64,000 bases of DNA from Benincasa hispida (taxonomy: Eukaryota > Streptophyta > Magnoliopsida > Cucurbitales > Cucurbitaceae). Below are positions 11,281 through 13,967 of this stretch, one piece after another. How positions within the stretch are numbered: position 1 is the first letter of the stretch; each line of letters starts with the position of its first letter. The notes beneath the pieces were generated by a model that worked only from the letters and a program-made list of their open reading frames with translations, was not told the DNA's origin and did no database searches. A program made the position numbers and the translations under genes. The DNA is taken from the NCBI RefSeq assembly GCF_009727055.1, contig NC_052350.1, forward strand, positions 28,872,000-28,935,999. The letters run 5' to 3'.

Positions 11281-11418
11281 CTTAGAGACGTTTGATCTTC
11301 CTGGGTGAAGAACATCAATGATCTGCATCAAACCAGAAAACGAACAGTAAGAACTTGCCTACAAATTGGAAGTATTGGACTGTATAGTCACGGTGTTGTG
11401 GCTTTAAGAGTAGAACTC
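11281..11418 (-). repeat. RPS24 exon 2 with its intron flank, second copy of the duplication
   Basis: This copy keeps the GTAAG donor after NVSK (AAG|GTAAGTC) and so belongs to the RPS24 transcript. It differs from the PPR-fused copy by Ser for Pro in HPGR(S/P)NVSK and by scattered intron changes. Confidence 0.9.
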
Positions 11419-11852
11419 AATGGAAATTGTTTATAGTTCAATAGATAGCAGCACAAAAAGCACTTATGGCAATATCACATTGGAAATATAAGTTTCACGA
11501 GAAAGGTTTAGATGACCAAGCAAATCATGCAGCAAACAGTTAGATGATACTAACTAGCAATGAAGCATTAGAAGTTGTATATGATACCTAGAGAGCAGTA
11601 GTCTCAGCCACAATCCTACGCAATCCATATAGTACATCTGAAAATGTTGATAATTCGCTGGTTGATAACCTCAAGTGTGACTTCCTCTCTCTGATCTCTC
11701 TCCACATGTATAAGAGTGATTAAAAGGAATTTCCTAAGAGTTACAATTCTTTGTTTGTCCTTTTTCCGACTTCCATAGTTGTTGTTTTTCATATCCATTT
11801 CAACCACATCCTTCAAGCACAAAAAGTGCTTGCTTATTATTTTACTACAAGA

Positions 11853-13223
11853 TCAAATGCCTCGAATAGAAACTTCAAGCTGCTCGATCTTCTTAGCTAA
11901 ATCATGCTTCCCACAGTTCTTCAATCCATCTGTAACCATATCAAAGCACCTTGAAATTGGAGGTAAACCAAATTCAGCCATTTCCATCAAGTAATTAGCA
12001 GCATCAACAAATCTCCCTCCACGTCCACACATTGTTATCAACATTGTGTACACCGGCCGATTTGGCGGATGCCCCTTACGTTTCATATCACTGAAAAAGC
12101 AAAATGCATCATCAAACTGACTCCTTTTACACATTCCTTTAAGTATTGGTCCGTAAAGACTTGGAAACGGTATATGTCCATCCTCAATACAGCAATGCAA
12201 AAGCCTGAATGCTTCATCAATCCTACCTACTTTTGAAGTTGCTGGAATCAAAATCTTGTAAGTATTTATATCAGGACAAAGCCCCAACTTGCACACCTCG
12301 TGAAAAATATTAATGCAAAAATCAACTTCTCCAGAGTTGCATATAACATCAATCAAAGAATTAAAAGTCCCTATATCAGGCACAGATCCTTCTTTAGTCA
12401 TTTTTCTAACCATATCCTTAGCAGATTCAAAATACCCTGCATTCAGCAATCCTTCTACCAAAAGATCACGACCTCGCAAAGGAGGATTGAACCCCTTCTG
12501 GCTCATTTCCTCCAAGAACTCCTGAGCTTCCCTCATCTTTCCCGCAGAGCACCATCCAGTTACAAGAGTTCCATAAGTCTTTTTATCAGGAGTTACCCCT
12601 TTTCTAATCATCCTCCTAATCAACGCATAAGCTCCATGAAACATCTTAACCTCACAAAGCGCAAAAAGTAGCGCATTATACACCTCAACTGTTTGTGGAC
12701 AATCAATAGATTTAGAACATTGATTGAATATGGTAACCGCATTATCGACGAGGCCCTGCTTACCATACTCTTGAATTATGAACGATATCGTTTCCGGTGA
12801 AATTTTCAGATTCTGCATCTTCATCTGTTGAAGAACTTTCCACATCGTGGCATACTTCTTGGTCCGAGCTAGGGTTTTGACGAGCTCTTCGAATTCAAGG
12901 GTAGTGGGTTGGTAAGAGGGGTTGTGAGTGCAAGCCCAGTTGAAGAAACGGAAAGACTCAGTACCAGAGTTGGAGCAAGCACGAAGGACTCTGAAAACAA
13001 GCTCAGAATTGAGGTAGGAGATTCGGAGCTTGTTGAGAGTGCGCTCCATGTAGAAGTCTCGGCGGACAATGTGGGAGATATGGTGGATCGCGGCAAAATA
13101 GTCATCTTTGGAAGGGGCAACGGAACCATTCCAAGAAGAATTTGAGGTACTGAAATGGCGGATGAGACAAATGTACTTGGAGACGTTTGGTCTTCCTGGG
13201 TGAAGAACATCAATAATCTGCAT
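11853..13223 (-). CDS. P-class PPR protein, At5g18390-like, nested in RPS24 and fused to an RPS24 exon copy
   Basis: An intron-free frame of about 456 codons. From about residue 150 it carries consecutive 35-residue PPR motifs, for example [33 protein letters not shown] and [12 protein letters not shown]. It resembles the Arabidopsis mitochondrial PPR At5g18390 from memory. P-class PPRs bind organellar RNA for stability, splicing or translation. The N-terminus is odd: residues 3-16 are [14 protein letters not shown], an RPS24 exon (13217-13176). The matching donor after NVSK is lost, so the frame runs on into [12 protein letters not shown], which looks like an old mitochondrial presequence. 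The acceptor before ATT at 13217 is intact. Splicing from RPS24 exon 1 (donor at 13896) is in phase and would give [11 protein letters not shown] as N-terminus from the AUG at 13928, 465 residues in all. Unspliced initiation at ATG 13223 is the alternative. Confidence 0.88.
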   Translation of the reverse strand: [456 protein letters not shown]

Positions 13224-13312
13224 CAAACCGGAGAAGGAACAGTAAGAACTAAAGCTAAAAATTGGTAGTATTGGACTCTATAGTCATGGTGTTGTGGCTT
13301 TAAGAGTAGAGC
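13176..13312 (-). repeat. Duplicate of RPS24 exon 2 plus upstream intron, fused to PPR
   Basis: This segment matches 11281-11418 nearly base for base: the exon for [14 protein letters not shown], its TTGATGCAG acceptor, the pyrimidine tract, and about 95 bp of intron including GTGTTGTGGCTTTAAGAGTAG. Beyond that similarity stops. The two copies are in direct orientation and flank the PPR gene. Confidence 0.9.
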
Positions 13313-13967
13313 CAGTAGAGTACAAAAGGACACGAACACCCATACAGTTCATCTACGCATAAAAGAAAAGTGTAGCATGTTCATAAAATATGCTTTTTCT
13401 TTTCGCCAGCTAGTTATAACAGAAGGTTAGCAGATACGTAGGATATGAAATCATAGATAGGCAGCCACCATTCACACAAAACTTGTACATAGTGAAGAAG
13501 ATTCAAAGAAAAAGTACAAAATCACAGAACATATAAACAATTGTCAGCGAGTTATTACAGAAGGTTAGCAGATACGAATGGGGTAAATGTTGACAAAGAG
13601 AATGAACATCAAACTATAGAATTAAATTGGGCTACATATGAAAACTGGGGTCAAATGGGAATCATCTAAAAAAACTTAAACAACAGGATTTCATTAATTA
13701 GAGTATGGATTGTTGAATCTTATACTTTATACAAATTTATAAAACAAAGGAAATGCGTAATGGAGAGATCTGAGGTTCGAATACTGAATTTATCCTCAAT
13801 GAAACTAATCCGAGAGAGACTTCAAAGTTCAAAACCAATTCAAAACCAATCTTCCGTTGTTGATAAAACGTAGAAAAGAGAAGAAAGAAACTCACGAATT
13901 GCTTCCTGGAGAGAAGCCGGTTGATCATGAACTTTCTGGTTCGTATGGTGACTGCTTTATCCGCTAT

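Follow-up and report, generated by a model that had tools for sequence, protein, structure and literature searches.

An At5g18390-type PPR gene that has probably taken over the 5' end of a spare RPS24 copy in wax gourd

Anatomy of the locus and its direct repeat

The 64-kb stretch of Benincasa hispida (wax gourd) DNA analysed here, called the window throughout, carries on its minus strand an RPS24-like gene of five exons that encloses a PPR frame (Table 1). RPS24 exon 1 ends in ...AAGCAATTC at 13896 and is followed by the donor GTGAGT. The acceptor TTTGATGCAG lies directly before 13217, where a copy of exon 2 begins, and likewise before 11322, where the true exon 2 begins, and both acceptors are in phase 0 relative to exon 1. 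In the exon 2 copy the final AAG at 13176 is followed by TACATT, meaning that the donor is lost; the copy is fused in frame to the PPR, and the frame stays open from 13217 to the stop at 11853. The true exon 2, downstream of the PPR frame, keeps its donor (AAG/GTAAGT at 11281). The sequence-only reading of this DNA had proposed that the PPR frame opens with an exon 2 copy that kept its acceptor and phase and lost its donor, and that exon 1, with its donor at 13896, is in frame with both 13217 and 11322. Both proposals hold at the level of the letters, the two splices themselves being predictions. The PPR exon has the make-up of a nested gene that shares a host exon, being in frame and in phase with host exon 1 and having its own acceptor.

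Three features go beyond the sequence-only reading. The initiator codon of RPS24, at the start of MADK, is ATA and not ATG in the window copy (13967-13965). The first in-frame ATG of exon 1, at 13928, corresponds to Met14 of RPS24; the stretch 14177-13929 is free of any ATG and the nearest one upstream is at 14178, so that Met14 comes first. Another in-frame ATG lies within the intron at 13223, just upstream of the PPR acceptor, and the PPR frame could therefore start without splicing. The donor after RPS24 exon 3 is GC (ATG/GC), where both paralogues have AGG/GT; the other donors of the window copy are GT.

Table 1. Features of the RPS24 copy and the PPR frame, in positions of the window
Feature	Positions	Strand	Remarks
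Putative proximal promoter and 5'UTR inherited from RPS24	13968..14165	-	BLASTN homology to L004 begins at 14165; 26 mismatches in 195 aligned bases
RPS24 exon 1	13896..13967	-	ATA initiator; in-frame ATG 13928; donor GTGAGT; paralogues L004 and L005 with ATG
Predicted intron from exon 1 to PPR exon	13218..13895	-	Contains in-frame ATG 13223
Direct-repeat copy A: intron end and RPS24 exon 2 copy (13217-13176), donor lost	13176..13310	-	
PPR exon: 14 codons of RPS24 exon 2, then At5g18390-type PPR to stop	11853..13217	-	
PPR segment absent at the paralogous site in L004: coding part and ~430 bp of 3' sequence	11419..13175	-	3' border approximate
First coding exon of public protein model P0208, in PPR 3' region, joined to exon 2 at 11322	11670..11798	-	
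Direct-repeat copy B: intron end and true RPS24 exon 2 (11322-11281), GT donor	11281..11414	-	
RPS24 exon 3, conserved residues altered, ends ATG/GC	10842..11012	-	Last codon 10844-10842; compared 168 bases end at 10845
RPS24 exon 4	9833..9919	-	
RPS24 exon 5 with stop	9723..9764	-	

A search of the 913-Mb genome for the RPS24 family, with all 7 of 7 candidates scored, found three loci: C6:49.227 Mb, C2:28.811 Mb (L004) and the window copy. Both of the other loci have an ATG start and an open eS24 frame, with a single difference among the residues compared between their two proteins, and the intact L004 lies only 72 kb from the window copy. The latter groups with L004 at a synonymous distance of 0.23; for the C6 gene this distance is 1.5.

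The end of intron 1 together with exon 2 is present twice in the window as a direct repeat of about 135 bp, with copy A at 13310-13176 (135 bases) and copy B at 11414-11281 (134 bases), which are 92-93% identical in ungapped blocks. The two copies align with a local score of 199, whereas 200 single-base shuffles of one side reached no more than 33, and a chance origin of the repeat was rejected. L004 is a continuous RPS24 gene with no PPR at the corresponding site and, being uninterrupted through it, is usable as the empty site. Compared with L004, the window has in addition a PPR segment, some 1.76 kb long, that follows the final base of exon 2, plus the second 135-bp copy. Insertions flanked by tandem duplications arise in plants by patch-mediated double-strand break repair, and the window is like them in that its insert stands between direct copies of the target; the repeat here is about 135 bp long and old.

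For the intron part of the repeat, the K2P distance is 0.094 between A and B (s.e. 0.03) and 0.099 from each of them to L004. As the three sequences are about equally diverged, the RPS24 duplication and the insertion may be close in time, in an order that distance alone cannot give; A and B do have common differences from L004, and these favour an insertion after the RPS24 duplication. The similar distances would also suit the reverse direction, in which the PPR did not move and came to be flanked by pieces of an RPS24 duplicate, or a single complex event that combined the RPS24 duplication with the insertion. Against this stand the differences from L004 common to A and B, and the need for two joins that keep RPS24 order and strand, a single insertion with target duplication being simpler. 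We consider the reverse direction possible although doubtful; it is compatible with the reading that we prefer, in which a PPR gene became linked to a spare copy of RPS24, and would have the same outcome for the PPR.

An LTR rate of 4.5e-9 per site per year is given for wax gourd in PMC6856369, which places the split from watermelon and bottle gourd at 16.3 My. At that rate the distance between A and B corresponds to about 10 My, younger than the split. Dates of 10.5 to 16.4 My come from further parts of this duplicate, and one of about 25 My from the synonymous distance in the exons (0.23), so that the RPS24 duplication, and perhaps the insertion, could predate the split. That the fusion is private to wax gourd is a guess; the melon and squash proteins show only that those two species do not share it.

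The N-terminus of the PPR protein

The PPR is the orthologue of At5g18390, a mitochondrial-named PPR of a type present in many flowering plants; a CIAPIN1-type gene (PF05093) is a neighbour of At5g18390. Membership of this type is shown by the PPR domains in Pfam and by the best match, P0001 of squash (E 1.1e-280, 92% identity over 92% of the query). Relatives of the type comprised 205 proteins at E <= 0.001, and 120 of the 205 (P0001-P0120) were examined. From residue 65 of the fused protein (the chimera) onwards, 384 of 414 residues are identical to squash P0001 and 1 of 108 near-invariant columns is departed from. In the 296 columns with melon and squash, the melon model P0119 being truncated (337 aa), 7 changes in the PPR body were assigned to its own branch, 7 to melon and 9 to the squash side. 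From residue 65 the PPR body appears to evolve at a normal pace.

While the body is like that of other At5g18390-type mitochondrial PPR proteins, the N-terminal residues are here replaced by RPS24. Squash P0001 and melon P0119 have N-termini of their own, MFHFK... and MLHFK..., up to the common ..LIR.FS. The window PPR has lost its first codons, 15 by the melon protein and 27 by the squash protein, and in the place of a native presequence as in those two species the chimera has RPS24 residues before YICLIRHFS, with a match to Pfam Ribosomal_S24e at residues 9-38. Four RPS24 N-terminal motifs were found in none of 120 At5g18390-type relatives among the matches listed (205 found). No remnant of the native PPR start came to light in the window, where the matches to a native N-terminus were weak (best local score 41), or in the 210 kb at 28.766-28.976 Mb (1718 N), where nothing beyond the fused PPR was better than E 0.29. 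When RPS24-PPR chimeras were sought elsewhere with the first 60 residues, 39 matches were obtained among 50 candidates, all 39 with the ribosomal domain and with no PPR domain listed. The protein library is clustered at 90% identity, and a chimeric wax gourd protein may therefore hide within the cluster of P0001, its absence from the library being no evidence. No RPS24-PPR gene is described in the titles and abstract openings of the papers listed on these subjects in the open-licence literature.

Given that the presequence of melon and squash is missing here, RPS24 exons 1 and 2 most likely supply the promoter, 5'UTR, start and presequence of the PPR. An A or G at position -3 of a start codon makes a strong context and a T a weak one, and the Met14 codon at 13928 has T at -3. 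The chimera leader has six R/K and one D up to RHFS, and it ends in RHF↓ST, which fits the motif RX(F/Y/I/L)↓(S/A)(S/T) given for Arabidopsis ICP55 in PMC4986872.

The most serious alternative for the PPR is transcription from a promoter inside intron 1, with a start at the in-frame ATG at 13223 and without exon 1. The protein would then be led by a stretch of 25 residues to RHFS with three R/K and one D, and the hydrophobic moment is 0.42 for both possible leaders (Met14 start and 13223 start), which does not separate the two. Such a start needs a new promoter in the RPS24 intron, though a ribosomal-protein 5' region and donor lie upstream, and a transcript from this 5' region that starts downstream of 14178 reaches Met14 first. 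We regard internal initiation as unlikely, and in the preferred reading translation would begin at Met14.

State of the RPS24 host

With the C6 gene as outgroup and only strictly assignable nucleotide changes counted, the window branch carries 9 nonsynonymous and 6 synonymous changes and the L004 branch 0 and 9, respectively (Fisher p = 0.007). Adding by hand R63G, R95M and K124N, which were not strictly assigned or lay in a codon left out of the script, gives 12/6 for the window branch and p = 0.001. Conservation was assessed with 119 of 120 RPS24 proteins among the matches listed (1684 found; P0208 left out) and the two paralogues. The window copy is changed at 8 of 86 near-invariant columns, compared with 0 of 86 in L004 and L005 and a median of 0 in the others; four of the 121 other RPS24 proteins depart at at least 7 of these columns (P0170 at 24, P0246 at 8, P0274 at 7 and P0224 at 7). 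As a functional RPS24 (eS24) gene, the window copy therefore falls short in its initiator ATG, in a full set of GT donors and in its near-invariant residues. The changes in exon 1 are few, and drift alone could account for them as well.

The frame of exons 2-5 is open, with no internal stop, so that a part of the copy may still be translated. P0208 (Benincasa hispida 40S ribosomal protein S24-1-like) is the public protein model of the window RPS24 copy, and in it window exons 2-5 are preceded by a first coding exon at 11798-11670, which lies in the PPR 3' region; exon 1 is absent from the protein, although the gene model may include it as a non-coding exon. P0208 joins YRLIM to NGLDT across the GC donor of exon 3. 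The open exons and their coverage by P0208 speak against the preferred reading in one respect, as a part of the RPS24 copy may not be dead. Taken as a whole, with its start codon and one GT donor lost and some conserved residues changed, the copy appears to be decaying.

The sequence-only reading had a single promoter and exon 1 still shared between the two products through alternative splicing, with junction 13896^13217 giving the PPR and 13896^11322 giving RPS24. Its nesting and its shared exon stand in so far as the PPR lies inside RPS24, in frame from exon 1 and with no native start that could be found; that the exon now also serves a cytosolic ribosomal protein is not supported. Both acceptors are intact and in phase, the RPS24 exons behind the second are open, and the exon 3 GC donor may still work, given the join in P0208. 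However, with ATA in place of the ATG an RPS24 product would miss 13 residues or require AUA initiation, near-invariant residues are changed, P0208 begins in the PPR 3' region and not in exon 1 (as far as its protein tells), and two intact RPS24 genes elsewhere make the window copy dispensable. Simple dual use was demoted on the grounds that exon 1 is without the RPS24 ATG and the rest of the copy is degenerate, and we hold it to be quite improbable.

A proposed takeover and its known relatives

A search of the genome for At5g18390-type copies, with 96 of 795 candidates scored, found none besides that of the window, which matched itself at 100%; the next match by E-value had 29% identity. The assembly, in 1791 contigs, might lack a native PPR copy. 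That the PPR insert is non-functional or redundant and the real gene missing in this way, a reading to which the contig number, the 1718 N in the 210 kb examined and the share of candidates scored lend something, is hardly credible, since 465 codons are intact after about 9% divergence between the repeat copies, protein conservation is normal, and a near-identical copy would be expected high among the candidates.

The reading that we prefer, and consider probable from the arrangement described above, is that about 10 My ago, or earlier, the PPR gene became linked to a spare copy of RPS24 and took over its 5' end, the host now decaying. A second RPS24 copy, 72 kb from its intact paralogue, would have taken up a PPR segment that runs from codon TAC through the stop and about 430 bp beyond, and upon insertion the target (the end of intron 1 and exon 2) would have been duplicated into the 135-bp direct repeat. 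The PPR gene's own promoter would have gone along with its first codons (15 by the melon and 27 by the squash protein). The PPR would now be read from the RPS24 promoter, with exon 1 spliced 13896^13217, and translation would start at Met14 of the old RPS24 frame (AUG 13928), giving a product of 465 aa (leader↓STS...). RPS24 residues would form the basic part of the mitochondrial presequence, the native cleavage site RHF↓ST being kept and the mature PPR ordinary. Since no second copy of this conserved gene was found among the candidates scored, selection would now keep the PPR product while the RPS24 reading decays.

A fuller version of this history seems to us evenly poised between right and wrong. 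In it, the only PPR copy acquired its mitochondrial presequence, promoter and 5'UTR from the start of RPS24; loss of the host ATG followed, by which exon 1 passed from the service of the ribosome to that of the mitochondrion, and what is left of RPS24 may live on with a new first exon drawn from the PPR 3' region, as in P0208.

If the preferred reading is true, a nuclear gene with a lost 5' end was rescued by a ribosomal-protein exon, and the basic N-terminus of a ribosomal protein is able to act as a presequence. The locus would also catch a late stage of a shared exon, at which the host decays and the passenger keeps the exon. The melon and squash proteins with their own start, and the intact RPS24 72 kb away as an empty site, make the case open to test.

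To our knowledge, most known cases of shared-exon capture concern organelle genes that moved to the nucleus and met donors with a targeting peptide already in place. A plastid case is the fusion of rpl32 with Cu-Zn superoxide dismutase in Bruguiera and Populus (PMC4329224). The passenger there was a former plastid gene and the donor a plastid enzyme, whereas the window combines a resident PPR with a cytosolic ribosomal protein. For rpl32 and superoxide dismutase, the functions were reportedly later separated between duplicates. The precedent named in the sequence-only reading, rps14 inside SDH2 of rice and maize, is a fitting one: according to PMC1543663, an intron-nested gene in the nuclear sdh2 of grasses shares host exon 1 and its targeting by splicing, and the window is of the same general kind, with a gene for a mitochondrial protein in a nuclear host intron that would have taken host exon 1 and targeting. 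As described in the same source, the SDH2 host is itself mitochondrial, its cleavable extension was already present and the host is still made. In contrast, the window has a cytosolic ribosomal-protein donor, a nuclear PPR passenger with no organelle transfer, and a host whose start codon is lost; splicing was shown for rps14/sdh2 and is predicted here. The combination of a cytosolic ribosomal-protein donor, a resident nuclear passenger and a decaying host would thus be a new variant relative to the rps14/sdh2 kind.

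Putative promoter motifs and first coding exon

Comparison of the RPS24-derived 5' region of the window with that of L004, an intact RPS24 paralogue, revealed that TAGGGTTT of L004, which we take to be a telo-box-like element, reads TGTGGTTT at window position ~14083, whereas AAGCCCAT, presumably a site-II-like element, is retained. In P0208, the public protein model of the window copy, the RPS24 remainder starts with a new first coding exon (window 11798-11670) derived from the PPR 3' region.

Repeats and transposon-like frames

Immediately upstream of the RPS24-derived 5' region lies a stretch of ~800 bp (window 15189-14394) that has an inverted match, with 84% identity, near the intact RPS24 gene of C6, and this stretch is probably a dispersed repeat. 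Other repeats and frames resembling parts of mobile elements are collected in the table, where the types are our assumptions from appearance or resemblance.

Repeats and transposon-like frames in the window
Feature	Position	Strand	Presumed type or remark
Integrase-/reverse transcriptase-like frame	1177-1971	-	copia-type integrase and reverse transcriptase, by resemblance
Integrase-/reverse transcriptase-like frame	2007-2558	-	as preceding row
Frame resembling part of a transposase	8974-9258	+	Harbinger/ALP1-type transposase fragment, by appearance
AT-rich repeat, ~55 bp, three copies	9277-9446		beyond the RPS24 copy, on its 3' side
Transposase-like frame	29603-30178	-	CACTA/tnp2-type transposase, by resemblance
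Integrase-/reverse transcriptase-like frame	46712-47461	+	copia-type integrase and reverse transcriptase, by resemblance
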